Below are positions 2,764 to 35,862 of a stretch of 42,210 nucleotides of DNA, piece after piece. The notes under the pieces were generated by a model. That model made no database searches. It had not been told where the DNA came from and worked only from the letters and a program-made list of their open reading frames with translations. Made by a program: the position numbers and the translations under genes. The stretch covers positions 1 through 42,210 of IMG/VR virus record IMGVR_UViG_3300048999_000012; one strand, given 5' to 3'. Position 1 is the first letter of the stretch. Every line of letters starts with the position of its first letter. The DNA comes from a virus.

Positions 2764-4257
2764 TCAGTAGACGACTTCGACGTTCCGGAAATGCGCGATG
2801 GCGGCTGTGTTGGTCGTGTTGCCGGCCAACAGGTGGAAATATCCACCGCGGTAGGTCGTGTCCGCAACGACAAAGCTCTTCGCGACGTCTGTACGGTTCA
2901 CGGTGATGTTGGTGGGCGTGACGACCACGTTGTAGGACATCCAGACGCCGGCAACAGGGTTGGCAGGATCTGGGGCGCCGTTGTTCGAAGCGCCGATCTG
3001 CGTGCCCGAACCGACACCGGCAGCATGCGTATAGAGCTGTAGGTCGCCGTCGTCTCGGATCAATACGTGATATCCCCCGGAGGCATTTGCCGATCCGAAG
3101 GTGTACACGTCATCCGAAAGCTTCCCGAACGCGATACCGGCGTGCAAAGAGGCTGCCGGAATGACCGGGAACATCATGTCGAACTTGATGGTGTACGTGG
3201 TGGCCGGAATGGGGCACATGGCGCCCATGACAACCGATCGGTTCGGTTGCTGGGTCCAATATACGTCCGATGCGGCGCCGAACTTCAGAGCTTCGGTGGC
3301 GCTGTTGTTTCCGACCGTGATGTTACCTGGAGCTGCGATCTGGAGACCGAAATTCGACTTCTTCATCATCGCGGTAGTGCGTGTGACATACCGGAAGCCG
3401 GAAGTCATCATGCCCTTGACGCCGAGGACGTTGTAGTGATCTCGCTGACTGCGACGATGCACTTCCCAGACGATCACCGGCTTGATCGGCAGGTGATTGA
3501 CGGCCATGGTGATCTGAGCGTCTGTCGAAGTGTGCGGGACGCCCCAGTAGTCGACAGAGACGTCTGCAGCGTCCATCTGAGCCGACGTGCTCGTCGGATC
3601 GATGTAGGCCCAGGTGCGGAAACCGTTCGCCTTCGCCCAGGCCAAGCCCGAAGTTGCCTGAAAATGCGACTTGTAGACTACAGAGAGCGGGGCGTTCTGA
3701 AGGGAAAGCAGAAGCGCCTGGAGCGGAGCAGCCGCGTCGGTGGTCTTCGGCTCCACGAAGAGAACGACGTTGTTGTAGAACTCCTCGATGACCTTGCCGA
3801 AGAGCGGGATCTCGACGTCTTTCCAGCCCTGCCCGAGAAGCGCCTGACCCTTAACAAAGACGGCGTTCTTCAGCTGCGCGTAGGTGTAGTCGGCAATAGC
3901 ACCGGTCAGACCCGTCATTCGGGAAATATCGGTGTCGTGGAAGCAGACCAAGACGCCATCAGCCGTCAATTGAACAGAAATCTCGAGTGCCTTCGCTCCT
4001 GCAGCGACCGCGTACCGATATGCCTCGAGTGTGTGCTCAGGGGCCTCGTCGCCGGATCCACGGTGTGCGATATAGAACGGTGTGGTGGACATGAGACTGT
4101 CCACAGTGATCTTCGGTACGTTGATCGAGAGATTGATCGGATCCAGTGCTTGACGCTCGAGAGACAGCTGTCCCGAGTTGTTGATGCTTGCACCGGTAAC
4201 AGCTGCGCCCGTGAGCTCCAAGACTTTGTCTCGGTCGTACACGATAACGGTAGCCAT
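2764..4257 (-). CDS. Tail protein with glycerophosphodiester phosphodiesterase (GDPD) domain and C-terminal lectin-like region
   Basis: This 497-residue protein has an N-terminal attachment-like region (1-60), a GDPD TIM-barrel-like domain (about 60-300) and a beta-rich C-terminal region (about 310-497) resembling carbohydrate-binding laminin-G-like folds. GDPD motifs visible are HRG at 65-67, EHT at 74-76, an LEISVQ segment at 91-96 and HD at 107-108. The usual metal-binding E-x-D of the family appears as E92-x-S94, so one ligand is changed. GDPD enzymes cleave glycerophosphodiesters; in a tail gene block the likely target is glycerol-phosphate polymers such as teichoic acids at the cell surface, which is an inference. 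It starts at ATG 4257, preceded by AAAGGAG, and sits between a second tail-tube paralogue and the gp10-like gene. Confidence 0.85.
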   Translation of the reverse strand: MATVIVYDRDKVLELTGAAVTGASINNSGQLSLERQALDPINLSINVPKITVDSLMSTTPFYIAHRGSGDEAPEHTLEAYRYAVAAGAKALEISVQLTADGVLVCFHDTDISRMTGLTGAIADYTYAQLKNAVFVKGQALLGQGWKDVEIPLFGKVIEEFYNNVVLFVEPKTTDAAAPLQALLLSLQNAPLSVVYKSHFQATSGLAWAKANGFRTWAYIDPTSTSAQMDAADVSVDYWGVPHTSTDAQITMAVNHLPIKPVIVWEVHRRSQRDHYNVLGVKGMMTSGFRYVTRTTAMMKKSNFGLQIAAPGNITVGNNSATEALKFGAASDVYWTQQPNRSVVMGAMCPIPATTYTIKFDMMFPVIPAASLHAGIAFGKLSDDVYTFGSANASGGYHVLIRDDGDLQLYTHAAGVGSGTQIGASNNGAPDPANPVAGVWMSYNVVVTPTNITVNRTDVAKSFVVADTTYRGGYFHLLAGNTTNTAAIAHFRNVEVVY

Positions 4258-4271
4258 GTGGAACTCCTTTT

Positions 4272-5060
4272 CTATGCAGAACTGATCTCGGTACTGTCCG
4301 CATCGATCGGAACTACCGTGTCGTGTGTGATCTGGTACTGCCCCGTACCGATGAAAGCAATCGCCTTCGTGGAGCCTTCGATGCGCCATTCTCCGCCACC
4401 GAGATCCGTAACGACAAACTCCTCCGAGCTGGAGAAGATATCGATGAGATCCTGGACTGTTGGTAGAGAAGCTGGTGTCGAAGTAGTTCCGTAGAGAATA
4501 TCCTCGACGGTACTGAGGGCTGTGGGCCCGGCTTCGGTTGAATCGATGACGAAATGCGCAGTACGCATCATGCCGGGAACCGGAACGGGCTTGGTCGTGA
4601 TGGGCCAGCTCAACACAGGAACGTCGACGTTGTCGTTGATCGTCGATCGAGTTCTCTGTGAAGGCGACACCAAAGCGTTGTAGACGATATGGATCTTGTA
4701 GCCGTGATCCTGGCCATCTACGTCATTACCGATCTTGCTTCGGTAACTCAAACCGAAAGTCTTTCGACGCTGCTGAGTGGCGAGGAGCCCGGGGGCTGCA
4801 GCTTGTACACCATCGCATTGATCGAATTCTTCGGGACTGAAGTAGGCGTTGATGGTGGCTTCGAACTCTTCTCGAGCCGCCAGATTCAAATACTTCTCTC
4901 CGTCGATGTAGAAAGGTTGAGCGTCGCCCCCCGTAGGAGCTTCGTCAATCGAAACCAGTCCACTCCAGGCATAGCCCGCGTTGTCGACGTAAAGAACGCC
5001 ACGATCGACGCCGAGTTCATAGAACCGTTCGCCTACCGAGTCCCAAGTAAGTTGTGCCAC
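4272..5060 (-). CDS. Second tail tube protein paralogue
   Basis: The 262-residue product is clearly related to the major tail protein at 5645-6511. Both begin with (A/T)QL(T/V)WD and share ETGVDHGVLY-like, YAW(S/N)GL, KYLNL, EF.ATI.A, RKTFG(L/F)SYR and YGTT/YGTS segments in the same order. Tail tube proteins stack as rings to form the tail tube. This copy lacks the Ig-like extension of its paralogue and ends instead with a short strand-rich segment (about 200-262). The start is GTG at 5060, seven bases after GAGGAGG. It is separated from the paralogue by one gene and followed by the GDPD gene, so it may form a specialised ring or the connection to the GDPD protein. That role is inferred. Confidence 0.8.
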   Translation of the reverse strand: MAQLTWDSVGERFYELGVDRGVLYVDNAGYAWSGLVSIDEAPTGGDAQPFYIDGEKYLNLAAREEFEATINAYFSPEEFDQCDGVQAAAPGLLATQQRRKTFGLSYRSKIGNDVDGQDHGYKIHIVYNALVSPSQRTRSTINDNVDVPVLSWPITTKPVPVPGMMRTAHFVIDSTEAGPTALSTVEDILYGTTSTPASLPTVQDLIDIFSSSEEFVVTDLGGGEWRIEGSTKAIAFIGTGQYQITHDTVVPIDADSTEISSA

Positions 5061-7166: not shown

Positions 7167-8501
7167 TCAGCTGCGGGTGAAGCTCCAGTCGTCGACCTCG
7201 CTGTTCTCGAAGTAATACGAGGACGAGGCCGGGACCGCGTGGACGTTCAGCGTCGCACCGACGGCCAGAGCGCTCTGCGCACCAGCGGTCAGGGTGGCGC
7301 CCGTGTCCTTGTTCTTGTAGATGGTGCCGGTCTGGGTCGGGATCGTCACGACGCCCGTGGAGTTCACGAAGGTCGGGGCGGTCGGCTTCACCAGGGTGGT
7401 ACCGGAGGCCACGGAACGGACGATGAGCGCCGACTTGATCTTCACCAGCGCACCGGAGAGACGGGTCTCACCCAGGTACTTCAGCTGGTTGTAGTCGATG
7501 TCGAAGTCGTCGAAGAACGTGACCTCGCCACCGCGGTTGGTGCCGACGTTGTAGTCCGACAGGTTGACGATGATGCCGACCAGACCGTTGGCGGCTTCGC
7601 CTTCCATCACCTCGACGGGGACGATCGAGTCGACACCCATCTCGGCGGCCAGATCGGCCGCGGTACGCCACAGACGCCGGCCCATGGAGTCCTTCGACAG
7701 GAGCATCTTGGTCAGGGTCTTGCGCGTGGTGTAGAACGTCGGGGTACCCGTCCCCTTGTAGAACTCCATGCCGAGCATGATCTCCTCGACCAGGCCCTGG
7801 TAGGCCGTCGAGTCGTTGGCGATCGGAGCCGTGATGGTGGTGGCGTACAGCTCGTGCTCGTGCAGGATGGAGCGCAGACCGTCGCCGCTGGTCGCCGCAG
7901 CCGGGTCCTTGATCTTGTCCGGGTTCGGCTGACCCGCATTGTTCGGGTCCTCCACCGGACGACCGTCGCCGATGAGGATCGCGCGCGCGATTTCCTCCTC
8001 CAGCATGAGCCGCATCTCGGCCTTCATCCACGCGACAATGTCGAAGTCGGTGATGTCGATCACGTCGTCGCGGTCGAGCTTCTGCTTCTTGTAGATCGTG
8101 GTGGGGCCGGTCTCACGGGCCGACAGGCTGAAGAACTCTTCCTTCTTCAGGTTGCCCTTGATGTAGCCCAGCGCACGCGCCTCGTCCATGGTGATGTCCG
8201 CCACGAGCGACTTGACCTTGGCGAAGGGGGTCTTGCTGGTCCCGCCGAGGACGCCGGCCACCCACTCGGTGCGACGCTTGTCGAACTCGGGGGTGTTGGT
8301 GATGGTCTTGGCGTCCGGGAACAGGAGATCCAGGTTCTCGATGCCGTGGCTCAGCGCGTACTGCTCGACCGCGTGGCTCAGCGTGCCGCCGGTCTTGATC
8401 ATCGACTGGATGATGCCGCGGACATCCTCGCGGGACACCGAGTGCTGCAGCGTGCCGCCCTGCTGCCCGCCGCCGGCGCCCTGGGACTCGAAGACGTTCA
8501 T
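7167..8501 (-). CDS. Major capsid protein from internal in-frame start
   Basis: Within the protease-capsid frame, an ATG at 8501 follows GGAAGGA with a seven-base spacer. This is a strong internal ribosome site exactly where the acidic linker ends and the capsid region begins (MNVFESQG). It would give a 444-residue HK97-fold capsid protein in large excess over the fusion, as stoichiometry demands. The last 72 residues (APTFVNS, VVTIPTQTG, VDDWSF) form an Ig-like decoration domain similar to that at the end of the major tail protein. High third-position GC supports strong expression. Confidence 0.85.
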   Translation of the reverse strand: MNVFESQGAGGGQQGGTLQHSVSREDVRGIIQSMIKTGGTLSHAVEQYALSHGIENLDLLFPDAKTITNTPEFDKRRTEWVAGVLGGTSKTPFAKVKSLVADITMDEARALGYIKGNLKKEEFFSLSARETGPTTIYKKQKLDRDDVIDITDFDIVAWMKAEMRLMLEEEIARAILIGDGRPVEDPNNAGQPNPDKIKDPAAATSGDGLRSILHEHELYATTITAPIANDSTAYQGLVEEIMLGMEFYKGTGTPTFYTTRKTLTKMLLSKDSMGRRLWRTAADLAAEMGVDSIVPVEVMEGEAANGLVGIIVNLSDYNVGTNRGGEVTFFDDFDIDYNQLKYLGETRLSGALVKIKSALIVRSVASGTTLVKPTAPTFVNSTGVVTIPTQTGTIYKNKDTGATLTAGAQSALAVGATLNVHAVPASSSYYFENSEVDDWSFTRS

Positions 8502-9215
8502 GTGGGTTCCTTCCTGGTGTTCGAGGTCGCCCTCGTCGGTGTTGGCACCGTCGTTGTCGTCGGTGTTCTCGTCGGTGTTGTCACCGTCGTTGTCGCCGTC
8601 AGAGTGCGCGGCGTTGTCGGTTGCAGCGCTGTCCAGCGCGGCTCCGATCAGGTAGTTGACGACATCCTTCTGCTCCTGCGAGAGCGTGTTGTAGATGTCG
8701 GCGACCGTCTGGTTGGCGTGCTCGATCTCTTCCGCGTCGAACTCCTTGTCGGCGTGTTCGAGAGGGAGACCGAAGCTGATGAGCGCCGCGTCGTCCAGTT
8801 CGTCGAACGAACCGTCAGCGTGAGCGATCGTCACGTTCTCGATGAACGCGCCCGGGTTGGCACCAGCGAGGCACAGACTGACCTCACGAATGACGCCGTG
8901 GAACACCTGCTTCGAACGCTCCACCAATTGGTTGGCGAAGATCGAAAGCGCGCTGATGTCCTTGTGCTCGACGAGGGCCTTGGCGTTCTTGCCGGAAGCG
9001 GTGTCGTTGAAGAAACCGTAACCGTAAACGCCGTCCTCACGAACCTCGAGCAGCGTGTGACCGAGGACATTCCCCGGCTCCTTGTGGCCGTGTTGCCACA
9101 CCAGCGGAACCTGCATGCCGTCCATGTGCTTGAACGCTTCGGGCATGATGGTGCGGCCGTCGGAGCACTTGAGATTGGCCTTGGTGACGTAGCCACTGAA
9201 GTCAGCTACTGTCAT
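7167..9215 (-). CDS. Prohead protease-major capsid protein fusion
   Basis: One 682-residue frame contains an HK97-type prohead protease region (about 1-150), an acidic Asp/Asn/Glu linker (about 203-237) and an HK97-fold capsid protein (239-682). In the protease, the catalytic candidates are H42 or H44 in WQHGHKEPGN and a Ser at 88 or 91 in ISALSIFANQ, followed by REVSLCLAGANPGAF, typical of the S78-like family. The capsid part has the IETEEIARAIL-like spine helix (EEEIARAILIGDG) and a C-terminal Ig-like module (about 610-682). An internal start gives the capsid alone (see 7167-8501). The gene overlaps its upstream neighbour as ATGA. The acidic segment may act as scaffold. Confidence 0.9.
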   Translation of the reverse strand: MTVADFSGYVTKANLKCSDGRTIMPEAFKHMDGMQVPLVWQHGHKEPGNVLGHTLLEVREDGVYGYGFFNDTASGKNAKALVEHKDISALSIFANQLVERSKQVFHGVIREVSLCLAGANPGAFIENVTIAHADGSFDELDDAALISFGLPLEHADKEFDAEEIEHANQTVADIYNTLSQEQKDVVNYLIGAALDSAATDNAAHSDGDNDGDNTDENTDDNDGANTDEGDLEHQEGTHMNVFESQGAGGGQQGGTLQHSVSREDVRGIIQSMIKTGGTLSHAVEQYALSHGIENLDLLFPDAKTITNTPEFDKRRTEWVAGVLGGTSKTPFAKVKSLVADITMDEARALGYIKGNLKKEEFFSLSARETGPTTIYKKQKLDRDDVIDITDFDIVAWMKAEMRLMLEEEIARAILIGDGRPVEDPNNAGQPNPDKIKDPAAATSGDGLRSILHEHELYATTITAPIANDSTAYQGLVEEIMLGMEFYKGTGTPTFYTTRKTLTKMLLSKDSMGRRLWRTAADLAAEMGVDSIVPVEVMEGEAANGLVGIIVNLSDYNVGTNRGGEVTFFDDFDIDYNQLKYLGETRLSGALVKIKSALIVRSVASGTTLVKPTAPTFVNSTGVVTIPTQTGTIYKNKDTGATLTAGAQSALAVGATLNVHAVPASSSYYFENSEVDDWSFTRS

Positions 9216-13095: not shown

Positions 13096-14610
13096 CTACT
13101 TCGCCTTCTTGACTGCTTCGTCAACGAGAGTGCGAGCCTTGGTCTTGACTGCCTGATCGGCAGACTGCTTCCCCGTATCGATCAGAAGTTTGGCGACGAA
13201 CTCCTTCGACTTCTGGATTCGAGTCTTGTCGAGCCCGCCAGAGAGCTTCGAGAATTCTTGCTCCAGTCTCATTCGATCCAGAGCGTCACGAAGCTCCTGG
13301 TTGCTCAGAATCTTGGTGGTCTTCTGGGTCTTGACGCGAGTCTTGATGTCTCCGACTCGAGCAGCATCATGTGAAGTCGCCTCGGTTTGACGAGACTTCT
13401 TGTGTTGACCCCACTTCATGCCCTTGACACCGTGGTGTTCGAGGACAGCCTCGAGATCGGTGCCCCGTTGGATATCGGACATTGCGACCTCCAGTTCGTC
13501 ATCGGCCCACGACTTCAGCTGGAACGTAGGGCCGTCGGAATCGCTCGTCCAGAGAGCGATCTTGTCGAACTCCACACCATTGAAACCGAAGTCTCGAGTA
13601 TCCGGCTTGGCCGGCGTCTCGGGATAGCCCAGCGTCAGGTGTGGTGTCCACTGATCGTACTGCGTGGCTGATTGATAGGCGGTACTGATGTCCCTATCTA
13701 CCAGAAGATTGGTTCGGAACCGATCCAACAGCTTGTTGTTGATTCCCTTGTCGAAGAACAAGACATCTGCTTCTTGAGCACCGAGTGTTCCCCGGCGATC
13801 GACAGACATCCAGAACCGATGGAGTTGGGACGCAGCGTGTTGGATGAACAGCGAAACATTTTGGATCTGTTCCGGCGACCAGTCAACCTGACCCAAATAA
13901 AGCAGAGTCATATGAGGAACCGGCTCGCTTGAAACTTTCCAAACGTAGTCATCCTCCCGGGGGATGGCAACTACGACAAGTTCCAGACGGGAAGGGTCGG
14001 CATGCTTCACGTTGTCGAACGTGTACTCCATCTTGGACAAACCTCCCCAAACAGGATCTTTCTTTCCGCTTTTCGATTCCTCGACAACTTTGAAACCGAG
14101 CTTCTCGTAGATATGACGAGCATCAGGAGAGTTTCCGGGAACCTCGAGGGTCAACTTCTTGAAGCCCTCCTTGCTTCCGAATTCTTCAGATGCTTTCATC
14201 ACCGCTGTGGCATAGCCCTTACCGCGAGCCGATTTGTCTATACCCAACCAAGAAAGGTATAACTCATCTTTGCTTCGCTTTTGGACTGCAGCATCGCCGA
14301 CGGCTTTGCCGTCTTTGTCTTTGATGGTGAAGTAGGCGGCACTAGCGAATTCTTTTCGATAGGCCTCGCTGTGCCGACCTAACCATTCATTCAGGCGATT
14401 CGGCGGGGACTGCGATAGGGTGATCTTCTCACCTTTGGCTGTCGTCCGTTCAATCGTCGATGGACCGAGCTGTTGGAGAACAGAAGCAGGGCGCTCCTTA
14501 TGAACGCCCCACTTCATCCCCTTGACGCCGAAATGCAGAAGCTCTTCGCTATCCAAATGCTCGGCGATCAAGTCCAGGAGAGATCCGTATTCCTTCTCGA
14601 GATCAATCAC
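13096..14610 (-). CDS. GNAT acetyltransferase plus 2H phosphoesterase fusion with two HxGVKGMKWG tags
   Basis: This 504-residue protein is a rare fusion. Residues 26-35 read HFGVKGMKWG, a tag I recall from diverse phage proteins. Residues about 55-197 form a GNAT N-acetyltransferase-like domain, with the acetyl-CoA loop SARGKGYATAVM (127-138) and IYEKLGFKVV. Residues about 205-370 form a 2H phosphoesterase (LigT/CPDase-like) domain with two HxT motifs, PHMTLLYLG (H233) and PHLTLGYP (H324). A second tag, HHGVKGMKWG, lies at 392-401, followed by a basic helical tail. 2H enzymes hydrolyse cyclic or 2'-5' linked nucleotides; the anti-CBASS protein Acb1 belongs to this superfamily. The place in the head block and the tags suggest it is packaged in the virion and delivered to the host, which is an inference. 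It starts at GTG 14610, overlapping the upstream stop. Confidence 0.82.
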   Translation of the reverse strand: MIDLEKEYGSLLDLIAEHLDSEELLHFGVKGMKWGVHKERPASVLQQLGPSTIERTTAKGEKITLSQSPPNRLNEWLGRHSEAYRKEFASAAYFTIKDKDGKAVGDAAVQKRSKDELYLSWLGIDKSARGKGYATAVMKASEEFGSKEGFKKLTLEVPGNSPDARHIYEKLGFKVVEESKSGKKDPVWGGLSKMEYTFDNVKHADPSRLELVVVAIPREDDYVWKVSSEPVPHMTLLYLGQVDWSPEQIQNVSLFIQHAASQLHRFWMSVDRRGTLGAQEADVLFFDKGINNKLLDRFRTNLLVDRDISTAYQSATQYDQWTPHLTLGYPETPAKPDTRDFGFNGVEFDKIALWTSDSDGPTFQLKSWADDELEVAMSDIQRGTDLEAVLEHHGVKGMKWGQHKKSRQTEATSHDAARVGDIKTRVKTQKTTKILSNQELRDALDRMRLEQEFSKLSGGLDKTRIQKSKEFVAKLLIDTGKQSADQAVKTKARTLVDEAVKKAK

Positions 14611-16836: not shown

Positions 16837-17097
16837 TCAAGAAGAATTCGATGACACATCAGATGCAGTAACTTTCTTGTGCATTCCAGAGACATTCTCT
16901 CGAACGATCTCATCGATCGCTAACTCAATAGCAAGACTCTGATCCGCATCTGATAACTCATCTGAAGTAATCACAATCCTTGCAAGCAACTCAGTGCTAT
17001 GGTAACCAGCACGTAGGTCGAATGCATACCACTCTTCATACTGAGTGAATGGATCATAAGGATTGTCAACAGTAGTCAGCATGCTTTCACTCACCAC
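16837..17097 (-). CDS. Conserved 86-residue phage protein of unknown function
   Basis: The product has the segments MLTTVDNPYDPFTQYEEWYAF and LLARIVITSDELSDADQSL, followed by IELAIDEIVREN. I recall this protein as widely conserved in phages of Gram-positive bacteria, next to the helix-turn-helix/polymerase-like gene. It overlaps that gene by 11 bases. The start could be GTG 17097, GTG 17094 or ATG 17082; the family N-terminus favours one of the two GTGs. No motif is visible. It is AT-richer than its neighbours. Confidence 0.75.
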   Translation of the reverse strand: MVSESMLTTVDNPYDPFTQYEEWYAFDLRAGYHSTELLARIVITSDELSDADQSLAIELAIDEIVRENVSGMHKKVTASDVSSNSS

Positions 17098-19714
17098 TCA
17101 ATCCCTTCTTCAGTGTGGTTACTGATACACCCAATGCATCTGCTACCTCTGCCTGTGTGTAGCCTGATGCAAGCATGGCCTTAGCTCTATTGGTCTTACT
17201 GCTAGACATCAGCAGATCAGACTTAGGAGTAGCCAGCTTCTTCACTTGCTCAAGATTAGCATTCTGTAGGATCTGGCTCAGCTTGTTGGTACTGATAGCG
17301 CCAGCCTGAATAGCAGCCCATTCGTTGTCATCGATCTCGATCTGTGCCTTCTTGGCGCCGGTACGAGAACGGGCTTCAGCAAGGGCTTGTGCCTTGATCT
17401 TCTTGGTCTCAGCAGGATCCATGTCTGGATTCGCTCTCTTCTTGGCAGAGAAGGTGGCGTTCGCCAGGACCTGGGCTTGTCTTTCGAGGGGGGCGTTCCT
17501 GAGGGCGAGGTTTAGTTTCGCATTCAGTGAGCCCACTTCTTTGGAGTAGGCGGTCTTTGCGGACGGTGAATAGGGGGTAGTCTTAGTGTTGACCATAGAC
17601 TTACGTGCTTCGTTAGCCAACGACTTCAACCTATTCGAATGATCCGCATAGATCTTCTCAATAGGAGTACCGGACGAGAGAGAGTGTGCATCTTTCGTGA
17701 ACCCCAACTTAGTTACTTCTGTGAGGTGGGGTTGCACACGACCCGTCTTGTCCGTGTAGGTAGAGCCGGTCTTGACAAAGACCTTCTCACCAGTGGCCTT
17801 GTCGATCGGGCCACCATCTTTTGCACTGCGTGGCTTGAACTCAGGAACCTTGATTGTCGAGGATGCACCAGAGTTAGAGATGAGCGTTGATGCTCCACCT
17901 CGAGCGCTACCCTGATACTTGGCCTTCAGCTGTGCGATGTTGTTTACACGAGCTGATTCCTTGTAATCAAGGTGGTGCTTCTCTGCATCAATCACAACCA
18001 TGGAGTGCCGAACTGCTCGAGCTAGCTCGGCGTTGTTGGCTCCACGAATAGTCATGTCGGTGATGAGGTTGGATACCTTGCCCATCTCAACCTGCTTGGT
18101 ACGAGGCGACATCTTAGGCGCATCGGCCGGCAGCTTGTACTTCATGGGATCGAAGTTCTTCAGTCCCTCAAGGGCTGGTTCGCTCTTCACCCGACCACTG
18201 TTGTTAGGAATCACAAGGACTGTGTCGCCATCGAAGTCTGCACCCGACAGTCGTTCAGCTACCTTATGACTGATACCAACAGCATCTGTCGCATTACCAA
18301 GAAGCTTCTTCGCTTCCGGTTGACGGTTGTTCACGACGAGTTCTGGGATCTCGAACTTTCCACCATGAGGGTAACGAATCAGAGCGACTCGCTCACCATC
18401 ACGATAGTTGGGCGCATAGATCTCAGTTGCCTTCATACTCTCGATCGGCAGGATGACATGCGATCCCTGACGAGGAAGAGCGGCAGCTTTCAGATGAACA
18501 GCAGACGAATCCGCATCATCAGCGAAGGACTCAAGAAGACGCTTCTTGACGGCCGGATTGGTGAGCTTGTTGATCTCATCGAACTCCGACTTCTTCTTAG
18601 AATACGTCATGTCGAGTTGAGTACGAGCGAGGCTCGGGCTCTGCTTGGACAGCATCTGAGACGAAAGGCTCTTCGACCAGTTGCTCCAGTTTCCCTCTTC
18701 ATTGACGATGTTCACATGACCTGATTGCCGACTGATGACCGCACCAAACGGGTTATCGGGGTCATCCTTTAACTTCTTGAAAGCATCGAGCTTGTTCCCG
18801 GTGTTCTCCTTGTTCGTGTTGAACATGAGATCCACACCAGCAGGCAGGTCATCCTTGTACATGGCCATACCTTTGAGGTAGTGCGTGCCATCCACAGCGA
18901 TACGAACCTGAGCGTAGTGCGATTCACCAAGAGAAAGATCTTTGGCGCCAGGGCGAACGTAGATGACACCGTCTGCCTTCTTGCCTTCTTCTCCGTACGT
19001 CACACCAACACGCTTCGAACTCACAGAGGTGGGGGGCTTAATCCCGAGAAATGTACGCCCACCATCTTGCGAATAGTCAGTGATCTGCTGAACGTTATCC
19101 CGATTCTTGAAGACTTCGGAATACGGAACATCCGGCTTGGTCAGCACCTTCATGGTCGTCTGCTTGCCAGTGCCCAACTGCTCGACCTTCAAGTAGTGGA
19201 CTTTGTAGCCCTCTTCCTGAAGAACAGCAACTGCAGTGTTCAGCTTGGTGCGACTCACGCCCATGTGATACTCAACGCCGGCACCGATGTCGATGTACTT
19301 CTTCTTCTCGACCTGGTCCTTCAGCATGTTGGATGTAGCCTCAAGGACGTCAGCTTTATCCTTCTCGCCAGGTGCTAGGAGAGCACGGACCGAAGACTCG
19401 TTGATTCCCATGCGTTCGCCAATAGCTACATTCGACATACCTTTGTCTCTCAAGCGCTGAGCCTGGAAGATGTCAGCCTGCTTCTGTGCATTCTTGGCAA
19501 TCGACTTGGCTGCTCGCAAACGAGTCGTGGAATCAAGTCCCAGTCCTCGAGCGATCTCAGCTTCGGTCATACCTTGCCTTTTCAGGCCGGCAACGTACTG
19601 TAGAAAGTCTCGGTTTCGGTTGGCGCCGTCTTCACCACCAGATCCCCAAGGATAGCGCCCCGAATGGCGAGGCGTGCCGTAGTGCGCGATGTAATCGTCA
19701 ACATCGATGATCAC
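17087..19714 (-). CDS. HTH-containing protein with RNA polymerase beta-prime-like ADFDGD motif (possible single-chain RNA polymerase)
   Basis: This 875-residue protein starts at GTG 19714 after GGAGG. Residues 11-26 read HYGTPRHSGRYPWGSG, a tag-like element. Two helix-turn-helix segments follow (about 49-70, EAEIARGLGL; about 90-113, MSNVAIGERMGINESSVRALL), and a third lies at the C-terminus (about 851-871, YTQAEVADALGVSVTTLKK). Residues about 415-505 match the beta-prime double-psi beta-barrel pattern: GERVALIRYPHGG, then LSGADFDGDTVLVIPN with the triad D493/D495/D497. In RNA polymerases (beta-prime, YonO, crAss-like phage enzymes) this motif holds the catalytic magnesium. I cannot identify the second barrel with its lysines by eye, so polymerase activity is inferred. 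The gene is coupled to the Cas4-like nuclease upstream. Confidence 0.75.
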   Translation of the reverse strand: MIIDVDDYIAHYGTPRHSGRYPWGSGGEDGANRNRDFLQYVAGLKRQGMTEAEIARGLGLDSTTRLRAAKSIAKNAQKQADIFQAQRLRDKGMSNVAIGERMGINESSVRALLAPGEKDKADVLEATSNMLKDQVEKKKYIDIGAGVEYHMGVSRTKLNTAVAVLQEEGYKVHYLKVEQLGTGKQTTMKVLTKPDVPYSEVFKNRDNVQQITDYSQDGGRTFLGIKPPTSVSSKRVGVTYGEEGKKADGVIYVRPGAKDLSLGESHYAQVRIAVDGTHYLKGMAMYKDDLPAGVDLMFNTNKENTGNKLDAFKKLKDDPDNPFGAVISRQSGHVNIVNEEGNWSNWSKSLSSQMLSKQSPSLARTQLDMTYSKKKSEFDEINKLTNPAVKKRLLESFADDADSSAVHLKAAALPRQGSHVILPIESMKATEIYAPNYRDGERVALIRYPHGGKFEIPELVVNNRQPEAKKLLGNATDAVGISHKVAERLSGADFDGDTVLVIPNNSGRVKSEPALEGLKNFDPMKYKLPADAPKMSPRTKQVEMGKVSNLITDMTIRGANNAELARAVRHSMVVIDAEKHHLDYKESARVNNIAQLKAKYQGSARGGASTLISNSGASSTIKVPEFKPRSAKDGGPIDKATGEKVFVKTGSTYTDKTGRVQPHLTEVTKLGFTKDAHSLSSGTPIEKIYADHSNRLKSLANEARKSMVNTKTTPYSPSAKTAYSKEVGSLNAKLNLALRNAPLERQAQVLANATFSAKKRANPDMDPAETKKIKAQALAEARSRTGAKKAQIEIDDNEWAAIQAGAISTNKLSQILQNANLEQVKKLATPKSDLLMSSSKTNRAKAMLASGYTQAEVADALGVSVTTLKKGLSGE

Positions 19715-20277
19715 GACTGTGCCTCCTCCATGTATTGGTTGAGTCGCTTGTCGAGGTACTTGATCTGCTCCATGATGCTCGAGATGTCAACTGGATCAGG
19801 GAGGAAGACCTTAACGTCGTCGTTCTGGTAGATGCGCAATTCAGTTTCGATCTCGAACGGCTTGTAGTCGTATTCGAGACAGAAGAGTGCGGTGTAGACC
19901 TGAAGTTGGTCCATCGACGTCTGAGTGACGCCCGTCTTCAGATCAAAGATGCGAAGCTGCTTTTGCTTGGCACGAAAGCCGATGGCATCTGCAGTTCCGT
20001 AACAATTCGGCGAGTAATATAGAACGCGCTCAGGCTTCATACCGAAGCCGATGCAATCGTTCACGTATTCGTTGAAGGTTGTACCGTTACGCTCAGGCTT
20101 GATCTTCAAACGAATCATGTGCTTTGCCAAATCATGAAGCTCGGTTCCACGCTGTGCGGCCATGACAGCCATGAACATGCGTTCGAGCTTCTCGTCATCA
20201 TACCGGATCCAGTGGTATTTGCTAGCGCTGAGAAACGCGTGACCGCCGGCGAGACGTGAATGATCGTTGAAGTTCAT
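19711..20277 (-). CDS. Cas4/RecB-like PD-(D/E)XK nuclease
   Basis: The 188-residue protein has the RecB-type nuclease set: RGTELHDLA with H48, GTADAIG with D97, FDLKTG with D112 and K114, and QVYTAL giving QxxxY-like Q126 to Y128. These are the catalytic residues of PD-(D/E)XK exonucleases related to Cas4 and lambda Exo. In replication blocks such enzymes support recombination or host DNA degradation. The ATG at 20277 was chosen because GAGGAAG precedes it and it gives MNFNDHSRLAGGHAFLS, with S17/S19 at the expected family start. It overlaps the VRR-NUC gene upstream. Confidence 0.85.
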   Translation of the reverse strand: MNFNDHSRLAGGHAFLSASKYHWIRYDDEKLERMFMAVMAAQRGTELHDLAKHMIRLKIKPERNGTTFNEYVNDCIGFGMKPERVLYYSPNCYGTADAIGFRAKQKQLRIFDLKTGVTQTSMDQLQVYTALFCLEYDYKPFEIETELRIYQNDDVKVFLPDPVDISSIMEQIKYLDKRLNQYMEEAQS

Positions 20278-20551
20278 CCAACACTTCCTCTTCATTTTCG
20301 GGGCAGATGAAAGACGCGTACGACAACTCATCATAGAACCCAACCCAGTAGTCCTGGTTAGGCTGACGTTTTGCATCGAATGACGCCTTCACTTCAAGCA
20401 TGGCCCATCGATCATTGAACAAAATCATAAGATCGGGAACACCCTGGTGAATGGTGTTCGGATCTAAGTTGAACAAGATGCAGCCAGGGAACCGAAGACT
20501 AAGCTCCTTTATAAGAGAAGCTTTGTAGCCGGTACGACCAGTTTCTCTCAC
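20222..20551 (-). CDS. VRR-NUC family nuclease
   Basis: This protein of about 109 residues contains GVPDLMILFNDRWAMLEVKAS, the PD...(D/E)xK core of the VRR-NUC family (Asp in GVPD, Glu and Lys in EVK). VRR-NUC nucleases act on branched DNA such as Holliday junctions or flaps. The start is GTG 20551 with AAGGAGG five bases upstream; the upstream ATG at 20722 would run into HNH coding sequence. The 5' region carries a copy of the shared promoter (20594-20620). The 3' end overlaps the Cas4-like gene by 56 bases. Confidence 0.82.
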   Translation of the reverse strand: MRETGRTGYKASLIKELSLRFPGCILFNLDPNTIHQGVPDLMILFNDRWAMLEVKASFDAKRQPNQDYWVGFYDELSYASFICPENEEEVLDELQRSFTSRRRSRVSQR

Positions 20552-20593
20552 GATTCCCTCCTTAAAATAAGGTTGCTTGCTTCTACTCCTTCT

Positions 20594-20620
20594 ATTATAA
20601 CCTGCGATTCGGCTGCGAGT
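20594..20620 (-). promoter_or_regulatory. Promoter of shared type upstream of the nuclease/polymerase-like genes
   Basis: On the minus strand, ACTCGCAG is followed after exactly 13 bases by TATAAT (20599-20594), the same spacing as in the four copies near small membrane protein genes at 32.6-35.9 kb. It lies 43 bases upstream of the VRR-NUC start and directly after the HNH stop codon. It would drive VRR-NUC, the Cas4-like nuclease, and probably the ADFDGD gene. Confidence 0.72.
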
Positions 20621-20630: not shown

Positions 20631-21128
20631 TTATTCTGCGATGTATCGGAACTCCTGAAAGGTAGGGAACGTGTAGGTTCGGTTGATGATCGAACTGATG
20701 ATGTCTCGCTCGAGTAGACCAAAGGCTAGAGCCGCTTCCCAAGTGTTCGCATACCGCTCTTGAGTCTTGGTCTCGATGACTGGTTTGCTGCCGCCCTCTT
20801 TGCCATGTTTGGCTTGCAACAGATATGCGACCAGGAACCAGTGAGGGCGCCACATCAGATTGTCGGCACGATTGTTGGTGAGATCGTTGTCGCGATGGAT
20901 GAGATCTTCAAAGTGCTCATACCTCTTAAGCGGTGGCACGAACGTCTTTCCCACCAACCGAGCGATCGATCGACGCCGCTGAGTTCCATCCTTCATCATG
21001 CCGACATAGCACGTTCCGTGTGGATTCCTGAGGACCGTAAGGACGCGGCCAGTCTCTTCGTTGCGGACTCGACCGAACTCACTGACCGAGTATGCCTCGT
21101 ATCCGTTGATCCTTACCCATACTTCCAC
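20631..21128 (-). CDS. NUMOD4/HNH homing endonuclease-like protein
   Basis: The protein of about 165 residues starts with a NUMOD4 segment (EVWVRINGYEAYSVSEFGRVRN) followed by an HNH domain with HRDNDLTNNRADNLMW, the usual H...N...N pattern. Such free-standing enzymes are DNA-binding homing endonucleases that move between phages. I chose GTG 21128, four bases after AGGAGG; residues encoded upstream to 21215 read through the regulatory region. The surrounding AT-rich DNA differs from the rest of the genome. It sits between the helicase and VRR-NUC genes and is bracketed by 18-bp repeats. Confidence 0.85.
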   Translation of the reverse strand: MEVWVRINGYEAYSVSEFGRVRNEETGRVLTVLRNPHGTCYVGMMKDGTQRRRSIARLVGKTFVPPLKRYEHFEDLIHRDNDLTNNRADNLMWRPHWFLVAYLLQAKHGKEGGSKPVIETKTQERYANTWEAALAFGLLERDIISSIINRTYTFPTFQEFRYIAE

Positions 21129-21187
21129 TTGTCCTCCTTGGATGACAAATCCAAAAATTTTGACGAAAACTTTTTCAATTCTATAGT

Positions 21188-21216
21188 AGTGGGTAGTTGT
21201 ATTATAACTACCCACT
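21188..21216 (-). promoter_or_regulatory. 29-bp palindrome containing a -10 box (candidate operator/promoter of the HNH gene)
   Basis: Two 11-base arms (AGTGGGTAGTT and its complement) flank a 7-base spacer. TATAAT on the minus strand lies at 21206-21201, overlapping spacer and arm, so a protein bound to the arms would cover a promoter. The HNH start is about 60 bases downstream. The arms are the same sequence as in the 18-bp repeats. Confidence 0.7.
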
Positions 21217-23582: not shown

Positions 23583-23782
23583 CAGTACAACCTCACTTCT
23601 CCATAGGTGTTGTAGTCGGCTTTGAGGAAATCCGGGAGGAGCTCCTCATGATACACCGGCCAGTGCCAATAGGAAGCCTCTGGACACTGTTCTGGACCCA
23701 GAACTCCCTCGTCCACAAGCTTCTTGATGGCTGCGTACTTCTCGTCGGAGTAGGCGTCTGTGGTGACCGCTCGCTTAGGCAT
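23582..23782 (-). CDS. 66-residue protein of unknown function
   Basis: ATG 23782 overlaps the upstream stop by one base. The product starts MPKRAVTTDAYSDEKYAAIKK, has a central EASYWHWPVYHEELLPDF segment and no membrane span. It is coupled to genes before and after. The ORF is open further upstream, but the codons there are in the frame of another gene and look like shadow. The family is not recognised. Confidence 0.6.
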   Translation of the reverse strand: MPKRAVTTDAYSDEKYAAIKKLVDEGVLGPEQCPEASYWHWPVYHEELLPDFLKADYNTYGEVRLY

Positions 23783-23922
23783 CAGCGTCCGACCTCCGTC
23801 CGGTTCTGGATGTCCTGCTGGTGGCACTGCTCCGACTGGGCGGCCGCGAAGTAACCCGCCAGGAACACGAGAACTCCGATGAGGAGGAACTTGCTGATCT
23901 GCTTGCGGTAGTACTTGATCAT
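23782..23922 (-). CDS. 46-residue single-span membrane protein
   Basis: ATG 23922 is preceded by AAAGG with about seven bases of spacing. The product MIKYYRKQISKF is followed by a hydrophobic segment (LLIGVLVFLAGYFAAA) and a polar tail with one Cys, a positive-inside N-terminus pattern. It may be a small inner-membrane protein, or a lipoprotein-like one if cleaved, though there is no lipobox. Function unknown. Confidence 0.65.
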   Translation of the reverse strand: MIKYYRKQISKFLLIGVLVFLAGYFAAAQSEQCHQQDIQNRTEVGR

Positions 23923-25515: not shown

Positions 25516-28500
25516 TTAGTTGGCGAACCATTCGAAGTCGCCGAATTTGTTGATCGTCTTGATCGCTTCTTCAGCCAGGTTATCGAAGTACAGCATGTCG
25601 ATACTGACTTCCTTACCCAGCTTCTGGGCTATCTCCGCTTCAAGCCAGAAATAACCCTTGGTTCCGGCTACTGCGTACTTCTTGTCATCCTTGACGCGAT
25701 ATAGAACGCCACCCCCAGATCCGGCGGTTACAGGGACGAAACGCCCGGTGCGTCCTACGAATTGCATCGACGAGCCATCCGTCATATGCATCGGCTTCTC
25801 AGCCTCGAAGTCGAGATACATCGATCCCTGAGTGACCTGCTTGGTCTCGCAAAGGTCGTCCCAGTCGATCTCTTCTTCGGTGAACAGCGTCTTGTAGACA
25901 TACGGGTGCTGGAACTGCGCACCCACCGCGTCCCACTTGCCGTCCTTCTTGGCGATGTAGACCGCGTCGTTGACGAGACAGAACTTCTCGTACGTACCCT
26001 CATGCTCGAAGTCGTAGCCGTACTTCTTGCCGTACTCGGTGACGAACTCGATGATCTCCGGTGTGGCGTTGGGGATCTTGATGGAGTCGGTCTTGATGTG
26101 CACGACGTCGAATCCGCGAGCCTCAACCTCATGCATCAGATCGATCATGAACAAGGCGCCGCGCTTGGCGACGATATTGTCCTTGTTGCGGATATCACGG
26201 AACGGGTTGTCGAATTTCGCCGACGTGAGGCCGTAGACGATGTTGATCACGATCTTCAGAGCGTAGGCCAGAGCATCTGCTTGACTCTCATCGGTAAGGA
26301 ACGGAGCCAGCTTGCCGCCGAGCATCTCCTTTGCCGCAGCGAAGTCGCGATGCTTGATGGCCATTCGCGCGTCCTTGAGAGCAGCGAAGTTGGCGGTGTA
26401 CTTCCCGAAGAGATTGAGCTGGATGATGCTTGTAGGATGCATGCTGGCCACATCGAGCAGTGCCACGTTCTCATACATCCCTGGCTTGGCTCGCACGAGC
26501 CCGCCTTCTCCGACCTCCTCGTCTCGGTAGTAGCTCTTCCCCATGTCGAACTTGTATCCAGGGAAATCCCGTGACAGATCGGTATACTCGAACGACGCCT
26601 GTGGATTACGGTCGGTTCCGAATACGATCCGGGCCGTGTGCTTCTGGGTTGTGTCATTGACGCTCAGCCCACTCAGGTCGGCGAGAATTTGACGGGCCAC
26701 GAAGTCCTGCTTCCGGGCCTTGTGTGTCGCCTCAGTCGCAGCGACGTCGTTGCAGCAGTACTCCACGACCTTGTCGACCAGCTCCGGCGGCACCGGCTGA
26801 TCCCAGGGGTGATCCATCTCCATGTGATGGATACCCAGCTCGATCTCGAACTTCTTGAGACCCTGCTTCTTCGAGCTGTAGTCGTAGATATCCGCGTAGG
26901 ACAGGTTGTACGCCTCGCCGAACATCGACCCGACCGAGCCGTTGATGATCTTCTGCGAGAGGTTGTACAGCTGCTCGTTGTCGTAACCGAGGAACCGTCC
27001 ATACAGGATATGGTTGTCGTACCGGCGGTTGTTGAAGCCGACAAGCTTCAGCTTGAACAGCGGCTCAACCTCTTGAGGGGTGGGGTTGATCATCCGAACG
27101 ATCTCGGATGCGCCTTCGTACTTCCAGCAGATCACGAAGAGGTTCGGATATACCTCGACGTCGTAGAAGACCAGGCGATTGTCGAACGCTTCTGGAACAT
27201 CCGCGCCCTTTGCCATGAACTCGGCCGGCGTCTCCTTGGCGGAGGCAGCTTCGTCACCCTGGAACTTCATCTGCTGCACAATGGCCAAGCACTGATGTGG
27301 TTGGTTGGTGCTGTTGTTGGCGAATGCGACGATGCGCCCCCGCAGATCGGTTACGTCGTACGCCATGCCGGCAGCGTAAGCGTCGTCGAGGACCTTCTTG
27401 ATGAAGTCGATCGACGGCTTCGTGCCAGGGTGGATCTCCTTGCGCAGGTTGCGGAAGATAAGGTCACGAAGACCCTTCTCGCTCTGCATAGTATTAGCCG
27501 GGAGCACTTTCTTCTCCTTAAACGGCAAGCCGCTGTTGATGGTGGCTACCGGAACATTATTGCATTTGGTCAGTCTTCTTCGGAGCGAAGCCTCTCCAAG
27601 AAGAGTCTTAACCTCAATTCCCGTCGCGTAGGACTGAGATAGTTCGGAGACATCTCCGTCGTAGGTATAGTGGAGGTGAACCCCGGATCCTCCCTGAGAA
27701 AGCTCAGCATATGTGGCTGGCCACTCAGACGCCGCAGCGAGGTTTCGATCAAGGCTTTTTCTTCCCGAATCATCTGTGAGATCAAAATCGATAATAACAT
27801 GAGATTCAGGTACTCGGACGTAGTGGAGTTCCGAAGTAACCACGTCAGAAAGCGTGGTGTCCACCTTAGCCCAAGGCCGAGCTGGGATAGATTGTCCATC
27901 GGGACCAACCTTTGACTTTTGTGCTGGCCAATCAGCGGCGAGCTCATCGAATATAGATTCGGTTTCCTCCAGCACCAGCGAGAAAGCCTTGACGTCCTTG
28001 GTAGTGGGCGTCTTGAATTTGTTTGCGTTGAACCCCGAGTAGTAGCTCCGGTAAATAACACCGCCCACAGTTACTCGATCGTTGAAGTCGTCGAAGTAGT
28101 TTCGCAACTCCTCACGTACCTTGTACTGTGGCAGGATCTTCTCGACGCCTGTCTCGTTGCAGAACTCCTTGTAGAACTGGTAGGCCTGCTTCAATGTGGC
28201 TCCATCCTGCTCCTTGAAGACGTCGAAATATGCTTCGATGAAGTTGAAGAAGACGTCTGTCTGCAACATCATCTCCACTGGTCGATAGGCGTTGTAGTAG
28301 TTCTTGCCCAACGACCGATATACTTCGAGGCAATGTTGGGCAATAGCACCCAACTCGAAGTCGACCCGACTCATCAAGGTGTGGTAGTGGTTCACCGGAA
28401 TGGTGACGCCCGTAGGATGGACGTCAATCAGTCGCCGGATAATACCCGACTTAGCATCGGAGATCTTAACCGGCAAGTTGGTACCCATAAAGAGAAAAGC

Positions 28501-29301
28501 ATTAACCCGAGATGTGTAGCTCGGCTTGTACTTCTCATTCATCGGCATGTCTTCGTGAGATATGATCGAATTCAGCTTGGTGTTGTCCTGGATGCCGGAC
28601 AAATCACCATCATGCTGTATGGCTACCAACGGGTTGTTGCGAAACGATTCCGTTGCGAATCCATTGTTGTTGGATCCCAACGCCTTAGCCTCGAAGGTTG
28701 TGGTGTAACCCTCGAAGAGCTGTTGAATAATCCCCAGAATGGTGGATTTGCCAGTTCCTCCGGGACCATAGAAGACCAAGAACTTCTGAATCTTCTTCGA
28801 GTCACCGGAGACTACAGCCCCAATCGCCCACTCGATCTTGGCGCGTTCTTCCTCGGAATATAGAGTTCCGACGAGCTCATCCCAAGCACTGTGATCACCC
28901 CCAGTCAGTGGATATGGAAGCCTACGACTGCGATAGTCGTTCTTCTTCACCACATCGTTCGCGAAGGTCAGTGAATCATCGAGTTGATGGCTGTTGTCGC
29001 TGATGTTCTGCAAGTACTTACGGAACTGGCTCCACCCATTACTGCCGAAAGAACGGAGGTACTTCACGTTGTACGTCAGGCCAGTCTCTTCTTTAGCCTT
29101 CTGGGTATGGAGATCGAGTTCTTCATCCACAAGTCGCTGCACGTCATACTCGTCAGTAGACCACAGCTGTTCCTGCTCGTCCCAGATTGCGTAGAACGAC
29201 TTTCCTCGGACCATCAGGTCCTTGGAACGCCCGACAATGAAGTCAGGGTAGATCTCTTGTGCACCCTTCGTTTCTCTCGTGCAGATGCGAAAGAAATCCA
29301 T
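25516..29301 (-). CDS. Replicase fusion: SF3 helicase, archaeo-eukaryotic primase, family B DNA polymerase
   Basis: This 1261-residue protein combines three replication modules. A P-loop helicase of SF3/D5 type lies at about 150-330 (Walker A GPGGTGKST 179-187, VAIQHDGDL near 230, GTNLPVKISD near 273). An archaeo-eukaryotic primase-like domain lies at about 495-600 (DFDLTDD 505-511, SQGGSGVHLH 535-544, GIEVKT 561-566). A family B polymerase lies at about 710-1261: Exo I YDVEVYPN (D714/E716), Exo II GFNNRRYDNH (D762), Exo III VEYCCNDV (Y848, D852), motif A LLDVASMHP (D950), motif B KIVINIVYG (1016-1024), motif C HIKTDSIKI (D1072). In motif C the first Asp of DTDS is Lys; the second, catalytic, Asp is kept. 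ATG 29301 follows GGGGG. Confidence 0.9.
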   Translation of the reverse strand: MDFFRICTRETKGAQEIYPDFIVGRSKDLMVRGKSFYAIWDEQEQLWSTDEYDVQRLVDEELDLHTQKAKEETGLTYNVKYLRSFGSNGWSQFRKYLQNISDNSHQLDDSLTFANDVVKKNDYRSRRLPYPLTGGDHSAWDELVGTLYSEEERAKIEWAIGAVVSGDSKKIQKFLVFYGPGGTGKSTILGIIQQLFEGYTTTFEAKALGSNNNGFATESFRNNPLVAIQHDGDLSGIQDNTKLNSIISHEDMPMNEKYKPSYTSRVNAFLFMGTNLPVKISDAKSGIIRRLIDVHPTGVTIPVNHYHTLMSRVDFELGAIAQHCLEVYRSLGKNYYNAYRPVEMMLQTDVFFNFIEAYFDVFKEQDGATLKQAYQFYKEFCNETGVEKILPQYKVREELRNYFDDFNDRVTVGGVIYRSYYSGFNANKFKTPTTKDVKAFSLVLEETESIFDELAADWPAQKSKVGPDGQSIPARPWAKVDTTLSDVVTSELHYVRVPESHVIIDFDLTDDSGRKSLDRNLAAASEWPATYAELSQGGSGVHLHYTYDGDVSELSQSYATGIEVKTLLGEASLRRRLTKCNNVPVATINSGLPFKEKKVLPANTMQSEKGLRDLIFRNLRKEIHPGTKPSIDFIKKVLDDAYAAGMAYDVTDLRGRIVAFANNSTNQPHQCLAIVQQMKFQGDEAASAKETPAEFMAKGADVPEAFDNRLVFYDVEVYPNLFVICWKYEGASEIVRMINPTPQEVEPLFKLKLVGFNNRRYDNHILYGRFLGYDNEQLYNLSQKIINGSVGSMFGEAYNLSYADIYDYSSKKQGLKKFEIELGIHHMEMDHPWDQPVPPELVDKVVEYCCNDVAATEATHKARKQDFVARQILADLSGLSVNDTTQKHTARIVFGTDRNPQASFEYTDLSRDFPGYKFDMGKSYYRDEEVGEGGLVRAKPGMYENVALLDVASMHPTSIIQLNLFGKYTANFAALKDARMAIKHRDFAAAKEMLGGKLAPFLTDESQADALAYALKIVINIVYGLTSAKFDNPFRDIRNKDNIVAKRGALFMIDLMHEVEARGFDVVHIKTDSIKIPNATPEIIEFVTEYGKKYGYDFEHEGTYEKFCLVNDAVYIAKKDGKWDAVGAQFQHPYVYKTLFTEEEIDWDDLCETKQVTQGSMYLDFEAEKPMHMTDGSSMQFVGRTGRFVPVTAGSGGGVLYRVKDDKKYAVAGTKGYFWLEAEIAQKLGKEVSIDMLYFDNLAEEAIKTINKFGDFEWFAN

Positions 29302-32571: not shown

Positions 32572-32595
32572 TAGTGTTCCTTTCATAGGGGTCTC

Positions 32596-32622
32596 ATTAT
32601 AGGCCCAGTAAATCCTGCGAGT
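32596..32622 (-). promoter_or_regulatory. Promoter P1 (ACTCGCAG-N13-TATAAT)
   Basis: On the minus strand ACTCGCAG (32622-32615) is followed after 13 bases by TATAAT (32601-32596) and then GAGACCCC. The same pattern occurs at P2-P4 and near 20594. The small membrane gene starts 25 bases further. No TTGACA-type -35 box is visible. Confidence 0.8.
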
Positions 32623-35032: not shown

Positions 35033-35063
35033 GATGTTCCTTTCAGAATTGGATAGGGGTCTC

Positions 35064-35090
35064 ACTATAAGCCCTGTAATTCTTGCGAGG
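35064..35090 (-). promoter_or_regulatory. Promoter P2 (CCTCGCAA-N13-TATAGT)
   Basis: On the minus strand CCTCGCAA and TATAGT are separated by 13 bases, followed by GAGACCCC. It differs from P1 at few positions and lies 32-58 bases upstream of the cassette-2 gene. Confidence 0.75.
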
Positions 35091-35363: not shown

Positions 35364-35386
35364 GAAATTTCCTTTCGTAGGGTCTC

Positions 35387-35413
35387 ATTATAGCCCAAGT
35401 GATTTGTGCGAAT
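35387..35413 (-). promoter_or_regulatory. Promoter P3 (ATTCGCAC-N13-TATAAT)
   Basis: On the minus strand ATTCGCAC is followed after 13 bases by TATAAT and GAGACCCT. It is the least similar copy in the upstream block, but spacing and downstream bases are conserved. Confidence 0.72.
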
Positions 35414-35811: not shown

Positions 35812-35835
35812 GGTTCTCCTTTAATAGGGGGTCTC

Positions 35836-35862
35836 ATTATAGGAGATGTATTCCCCGCGAGT
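35836..35862 (-). promoter_or_regulatory. Promoter P4 (ACTCGCGG-N13-TATAAT)
   Basis: On the minus strand ACTCGCGG is followed after 13 bases by TATAAT and GAGACCCC. It overlaps the last base of the holin gene stop codon. It lies 25-51 bases upstream of cassette 4. Confidence 0.75.

Follow-up and report, generated by a model that had tools for sequence, protein, structure and literature searches.

RNA polymerases with a two-barrel core on a single chain have been described from several sources. QDE-1 and other eukaryotic RNA-dependent RNA polymerases (Pfam family PF05183) are enzymes of this type and carry a DxDGD motif, which is also present in YonO, the single-chain polymerase of phage SPbeta. 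The Thermus siphophages P23-45 and P74-26 encode the single-chain two-barrel enzymes gp64 and gp62, respectively, which are not virion proteins; a second enzyme, gp96, is a virion RNA polymerase fused to the tape measure (PMC10770324). A further single-chain two-barrel phage enzyme is gp66 of the crAss-like phage phi14:2, whose structure (6VR4) is cited in the same work (PMC10770324). Here we analyze the whole virus record IMGVR_UViG_3300048999_000012, a stretch of 42,210 bases that is referred to as the window. It represents a siphophage with its main genes all on the minus strand and a tape-measure gene that spans the window ends. The gene at positions 17087–19714 starts with GTG and encodes a protein of 875 amino acids that, judging from its predicted fold, is very probably a single-chain two-barrel RNA polymerase and would synthesize RNA. 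With all evidence taken together, we lean towards the reading that this polymerase contains helix-turn-helix (HTH) domains, is delivered with the virion and reads its own promoters.

The window protein is a full-length member of PHROG 4291 (40–91% identity), to which ORF75 of Lactococcus phage 1706 and gp55 of Streptomyces phage Scap1 belong. It shares the single chain, the two-barrel core and the DxDGD motif with the QDE-1-type enzymes, which include its best fold match. It differs from them in that it is encoded by a double-stranded DNA phage genome, is fused to HTH domains, bears a virion-type tag, is accompanied by a promoter-like element and scores below the Pfam cut-off. The Thermus enzymes gp64 and gp62 also come from siphophages and match its fold, and a virion RNA polymerase transcribing the earliest genes, as proposed here, would be a further likeness between the two systems. 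However, one enzyme is found here instead of two, it bears a short tag and is encoded apart from the tape measure instead of being fused to it, it has HTH domains, and the promoter is a different one. YonO belongs to a separate PHROG and has no HTH match in Pfam. The HTH domains and the tag also distinguish the window enzyme from phi14:2 gp66, which we take to be located in the virion.

The protein matches PHROG 4291 from residue 5 to residue 874 (E = 0), and homologues are present in 250 of 50,697 phage records. It was aligned with IMG/VR homologues that are 44–91% identical to it, giving 102 sequences in total. The residues D493, D495, D497, K281, R447, P449 and H450 are invariant in this alignment, and K302 is kept in 101 sequences. 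The end-to-end PHROG match, the occurrence in 250 phages and the invariant aspartate triad show that neither the open reading frame (ORF) nor its motif arose by chance. The initial annotation had quoted the motifs GERVALIRYPHGG (residues 439–451) and LSGADFDGDTVLVIPN (residues 489–504, with the three aspartates within LSGADFDGD) and had placed three HTH segments at both ends of the protein. The coordinates, the motifs and the aspartate positions are correct in the translation of the window. The HTH segments are backed by Pfam, in which HTH_23 and Sigma70_r4_2 exceed their cut-offs, with a Sigma70_r4-like match at residues 78–113 and C-terminal HTH matches around 840–872, and by helices of the predicted model at 30–57, 63–113 and 838–873.

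Sequence searches of the PDB with the single protein and with a profile returned only HTH or chance matches and were thus uninformative, so that a fold search was needed. The AlphaFold model built from the 102 sequences has a mean predicted local distance difference test (pLDDT) score of 85.3 and a predicted template modelling (TM) score of 0.76; pLDDT falls below 50 only at residues 1–32 and 214–224. Regions for both of the double-psi barrels whose absence would have refuted the initial annotation appear in it, as strand clusters at residues 236–345 and 417–505 on either side of connector helices. The second of them holds the DxDxD metal-binding motif of two-barrel polymerases, and the other, which precedes it on the same chain, carries the conserved lysines K281 and K302. 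By their order and the fold match, these lysines may be the counterparts of the beta-subunit lysines. The catalytic barrel is followed by long conserved helices at 537–556 and 561–580, as seen in the model without superposition on a known structure. Among solved structures, Foldseek matched the model with probability 1.00 to Neurospora QDE-1 (E = 7.7e-10), P74-26 gp62 (E = 3.8e-8) and maize RDR2 (E = 1.1e-7). Multisubunit RNA polymerases followed with weaker matches, and 6VR4 was not among the matches listed. In the viral library, P23-45 gp64 was matched (E = 9.0e-8).

Weaker yet independent support for a polymerase core comes from two sequence matches, one to PF05183 over residues 484–585 (E = 6.3e-4) and one to PHROG 8308, the family of YonO, over the 80 residues 426–505 that form the DFDGD barrel (E = 9.7e-4, about 1e-3). 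Membership in either family was considered and rejected. The PF05183 match reaches 19.0 bits, under the curated cut-off of 23.8 bits, and P0004 likewise stays below it with 16.3 bits. With YonO, to whose group the initial annotation had likened the protein, no full-length homology was detected (hhalign probability 2.7%). The phage-encoded, HTH-guided RNA polymerase of that annotation is supported as the best reading by the fold matches together with the conserved triad and lysines. A regulator that descends from a polymerase, has no catalytic activity and uses its HTH domains to bind DNA would suit the many deposits in which the protein is annotated as an HTH protein only, and the family is not known to have any activity. 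We regard such a regulator as highly improbable, since the triad and K281 are complete and K302 is nearly so in 102 diverse homologues, as catalysis would preserve them and scaffolding would not.

The phages that encode the polymerase infect Arthrobacter, Gordonia, Streptomyces, Lactococcus, Curtobacterium, Rhodococcus, Microbacterium, Faecalibacterium and other hosts. An alignment-based scan also detected it in prophage-like contigs of Lachnospiraceae and their relatives; a scan of host genomes with the single protein gave no match. The family is labelled 'RNA-dependent RNA polymerase' in PHROG and RefSeq and 'helix-turn-helix DNA binding domain protein' in many deposits. The former name probably misstates the template, which would be DNA. 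The family is therefore already named, contrary to the impression of a new group given by the initial annotation; that it lacks a functional description agrees with the literature searched, in which none was found. One homologue from an oral phage (L084 8992–11652, KF594188 gp106) is annotated as a tail fiber protein. Small proteins that resemble pieces of the polymerase, either its HTH or its barrel part, are encoded at G069 23647–23910 and G083 27214–27381, both in genomes that contain the full gene, and Arthrobacter phage Qui has a small separate protein of this kind (A0A5B8WIH5).

The sequence TATAATGAGACCC recurs in intergenic regions of the window. The promoter-like element has the consensus TCGCR-N6-NC-N6-TATAATR, is 26 bp long and is located upstream of non-structural genes and sometimes of tRNA genes. 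A slightly looser pattern found five sites in the window and none in 100 shuffles. The pattern TRTARTGAGACCC occurs in 101 copies in 24 of 42 family records, on one strand in each genome, and the reversed control gave none. The more general pattern TCGCRNNNNNNRCNNNNNNTRTARTR was matched in 20 of 25 records, distant members among them, at 126 sites; one site lay on the opposite strand, and the control again gave none. A 13-base core with three mismatches occurs at chance level, and the searches were therefore confined to exact or extended patterns. In 86 aligned sites, numbered from the first T of the hexamer, positions outside the search pattern are strongly conserved: T, C, G and C at -19 to -16 are found in 97, 99, 99 and 94%, A at -15 in 79% and C at -7 in 100% of the sites. 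In most of them a ribosome-binding site and a start codon follow 27–39 nucleotides downstream, commonly 29–31. In Scap1 (L085), the element lies, exactly or with one mismatch, at 23058, 23389, 23702 and 26822, inside the annotated starts of gp27, gp28, gp29 and gp36, which implies that these starts are probably annotated too far upstream.

Nine genomes, complete or nearly so, contain 55 sites, every one of them between the mapped tail genes and the polymerase and none among the structural genes. Four of the 21 tRNA genes are preceded by the element at a distance of 9–13 nucleotides, counted from the first T of the hexamer to the tRNA. Such a position suits a transcription start, but not a translation signal. 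Some mycobacteriophages have start-associated sequences, and the position of the element about 30 nucleotides before start codons, just above the ribosome-binding site, would also suit a translation leader or an operator. It is very doubtful that the element is either of these, because the tRNA genes that follow it have no start codon and because it is asymmetric and keeps a single orientation.

The element could also be a host promoter that is assisted by a phage activator. The host RNA polymerase would then transcribe, an HTH or other core protein would activate, and the phage polymerase would act elsewhere. T4 MotA boxes near -30 accompany TATAAT in a similar manner; in the element TCGC lies near -30 in sigma-70 numbering, TATAAT is the sigma-A -10 hexamer in most genomes, and the phage core includes small proteins with no assigned function, among them those of PHROG 4303 and 4259. 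We nevertheless consider this explanation unlikely. No conserved sigma-70 -35 hexamer is found 16–18 nucleotides above the -10 part in the 86 aligned sites; the conserved TCGCR sits 14 nucleotides above TATAAT. Furthermore, TCGCG is paired with TTTTATGGA or TTTAATGG in G019 and G035, and Lactococcus relatives contain the variants TTTTACATACCC-TATAATGA or TATAGTAGAAAGA, the last being that of phage 1706. These variants indicate that the whole element, including its -10 part, drifts with the phage lineage, whereas the host sigma-A consensus does not. Ten genomes of bacteria in which the polymerase gene is present have the element at control level (0–4 matches each), and the clearest matches, in Blautia, Butyrivibrio and Ruminococcus torques, are near a prophage as judged from coordinates. 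Finally, the sole HTH protein shared by the phages is the polymerase itself. The genes common to the window and eight distant genomes encode structural proteins, a fused replicase, a single-strand binding-like protein, a helicase, nucleases, probable membrane proteins, the polymerase, its partner described below and the small PHROG 4259 protein; only the polymerase among them combines HTH and polymerase features.

The strict form of the element was also searched for on its own in 2.9 million viral contigs. Among the element matches listed, 42 contigs of at least 32 kb were tested, and 34 of these encode the polymerase. Seven of the other eight carry the family replicase or TerL and may be fragments. 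Contig L406 (33,203 bases) has three copies of the element, one of which precedes a tRNA gene; no family polymerase, replicase or TerL was detected in it, and this contig may be fragmentary or may come from a distant virus that uses the element. Members of the family without the polymerase were sought through TerL and the replicase. For the main host groups, both searches gave the counts of the polymerase, and the additional records, few in number, were short fragments. It appears likely that the element is read by the window polymerase, and the genes behind it would be early genes.

The N-terminus of the polymerase, YIAHYGTPRHSGRYPWGSG, is predicted to be disordered. It contains a near-invariant tag, HYGxxRxSGRYPWGSG, in which H11, G13, S18, G19, R20, Y21 and G24 are invariant in the 102 homologues. 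A strict regular expression for the tag matches 297 of the 336 polymerase ORFs of at least 820 amino acids. A related motif, HxGxKGMKWG (Pfam DUF7211), is found on proteins of the same phages that are usually encoded beside the terminase; no papers on KGMKWG were found in the literature searched. The polymerase-type tag itself occurs on small basic proteins in L088, where the gene adjoins TerL, and in L171 and L173. One protein of L088 and one of L173 match both the N-terminus of PHROG 4291 and PHROG 7021, a DUF7211-tag family. In the window, two DUF7211 tags flank the GNAT and 2H-phosphoesterase-like domains of the protein encoded between the connector and TerL genes, which may represent injected cargo enzymes.

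In the record of Lactococcus phage 1706 (EU081845), the tagged polymerase homologue ORF75 is deposited as 'structural protein', and most of the genes around it are listed as 'unknown'. ORF7, which bears two DUF7211-type tags, is likewise labelled 'structural protein'. Proteomics of the phage 1706 virion has reportedly been carried out, and we infer that the labels stem from it. In ReqiPoco6 and ReqiPepy6, gp106 is labelled structural by similarity. Because both tagged proteins of phage 1706 are deposited as structural, the enzyme is probably virion-borne, a view drawn from the annotation of a homologue and the shared tag. The polymerase might instead be made after infection, with its first expression provided by the host RNA polymerase. 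The label of ORF75 would then be explained by contamination or by a tag that serves another purpose, for example as a signal for assembly or maturation. The gene does lie among replication and nuclease genes outside the structural module, and its operon bears the same promoter-like site. We find a non-virion enzyme rather unlikely, as the tag is shared with proteins encoded beside the terminase, both tagged proteins of phage 1706 are deposited as structural, and a promoter driven by its own product requires a first dose of enzyme.

The polymerase gene is followed by a gene for an 86-amino-acid partner, which was directly downstream in each of the 97 loci whose sequence extends far enough (Table 1). 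The partner is present in 250 phage records, and its counts for the listed host groups equal those of the polymerase. Its model has a pLDDT of 90 and gave no PDB fold match. The partner may act as a subunit, in specificity or in packaging; an omega-like role was considered and is unsupported, as a fold match is absent. The tag, the promoter-like element and the partner of the polymerase family appear to be undescribed in the literature searched. Upstream, the polymerase shares its operon with two nuclease genes and a promoter-like site, and in several other genomes a site is located about 1–1.4 kb upstream of the polymerase. A strong palindrome at 21188–21216, AGTGGGTAGTTGTATTATAACTACCCACT, overlaps a TATAAT near the gene at 20631–21215. 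Its arm GTGGGTAGTTG recurs near 20620, and the palindrome is a possible operator.

Table 1. Features of the polymerase locus and promoter-like sites in the window
Feature	Position	Strand	Basis
Product of the gene between connector and TerL genes; carries two DUF7211 tags (HFGVKGMKWG, HHGVKGMKWG), GNAT and 2H-phosphoesterase-like domains	13096..14610	-	Pfam/profile matches; positional counterpart of 1706 ORF7
Partner gene, 86 amino acids, PHROG 4303, function unassigned in PHROG	16837..17097	-	Overlaps 3' end of polymerase gene
Predicted single-chain two-barrel RNA polymerase, 875 amino acids, PHROG 4291	17087..19714	-	PHROG match, alignment, model, Foldseek
C-terminal HTH, residues 838-873	17096..17203	-	Pfam and model
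Second barrel region, beta-prime-like, residues 417-503	18206..18466	-	Model, Foldseek, sub-threshold PF05183 match from residue 484
Catalytic DFDGD, residues 493-497	18224..18238	-	ORF translation and alignment of homologues
First barrel region, beta-like, residues 236-345, conserved K281 and K302	18680..19009	-	Model, Foldseek, alignment
HTH 2, residues 76-113, sigma-70 region 4-like	19376..19489	-	Pfam and model
HTH 1, residues 30-57	19544..19627	-	Model helices and Pfam
N-terminal tag, residues 8-27, YIAHYGTPRHSGRYPWGSGG	19634..19693	-	Alignment of homologues, model, tag regular expression
PD-(D/E)XK exonuclease, PHROG 3953, directly upstream of polymerase in same operon	19711..20376	-	Profile match, shared-gene comparison
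Small nuclease, GTG start about 48 nucleotides below promoter-like site, first gene of polymerase operon	20222..20551	-	Shared-gene comparison, site scan
Promoter-like site TCGCAGCCGAATCGCAGGT-TATAATA above nuclease, exonuclease, polymerase and partner genes	20593..20618	-	Looser pattern scan; similar sites in other phages
Promoter-like site TCGCAGGATTTACTGGGCC-TATAATGAGACCC, start codon 30 nucleotides from first T	32589..32620	-	Motif scans
Promoter-like site TCGCAAGAATTACAGGGCT-TATAGTGAGACCC	35057..35088	-	Motif scans
Promoter-like site TCGCACAAATCACTTGGGC-TATAATGAGACCC	35380..35411	-	Motif scans
Promoter-like site TCGCGGGGAATACATCTCC-TATAATGAGACCC	35829..35860	-	Motif scans

Several points weigh against a virion-delivered polymerase that reads its own promoters. 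The full-chain TM-scores of the Foldseek matches are low (about 0.3), so that the match covers the core and not the whole chain, and the barrel geometry is a fold match and not one at residue level. The -10 part of the element resembles a host promoter in most genomes, where it is TATAAT. G015, whose polymerase is 67% identical, contains one degenerate site only, and no site was found in the examined part of FP_oengus. All core genes of the family co-occur, so that genomics cannot show which of them the element belongs to, the polymerase or another. The 'structural protein' label of 1706 ORF75 is an annotation. It is also hard to see how an enzyme of 875 amino acids would pass through a siphovirus tail.

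We propose the following course of events for the virion-delivered polymerase. HTH domains would have been added at both ends of a QDE-1-like two-barrel core, and the N-terminal tag would direct the enzyme into the virion. Upon infection, the polymerase would enter together with the DNA and start transcription at the element before small non-structural genes and some tRNA genes. Through the site before its own operon, it would amplify itself. The late genes might be reached by read-through that starts at the operon site and crosses the joined cos ends, or else be transcribed by the host enzyme.

Three other genes of the window, all on the minus strand, were noted. The gene at 25516–29301 encodes the fused helicase-primase-PolB replicase, which is found in 253 phage records. 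It is related to GP55 of Lactococcus phage 1706, a four-in-one protein (PMC12205980). The product of the gene at 7167–9215 seems to be a fusion of a head maturation protease with the major capsid protein (PHROG 3270). At 2764–4389, a gene among the tail genes contains a glycerophosphodiester phosphodiesterase-like sequence, which was detected in one of eight compared relatives.

The polymerase family is found in hundreds of phages of soil, dairy and gut bacteria, and at least 250 sequenced phages, many from teaching programmes, carry it under labels that hide its function. There is about an even chance that a large family of siphophages of Actinomycetota and Bacillota has in common an early transcription by a virion-carried single-chain polymerase with built-in HTH promoter readers, a 26-bp promoter, a small partner and capsid loading through a general cargo tag that other enzymes also bear. 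If so, the tag could help to reveal how phages select the proteins that they pack and inject. A compact pair of polymerase and promoter would become available, along with a genetic test system for promoter finding by single-chain two-barrel polymerases. Phages that possess the polymerase and its start signal are probably not solely dependent on the gene-reading machinery of the host. They would bypass the host RNA polymerase partly or wholly, which would explain their regulation.

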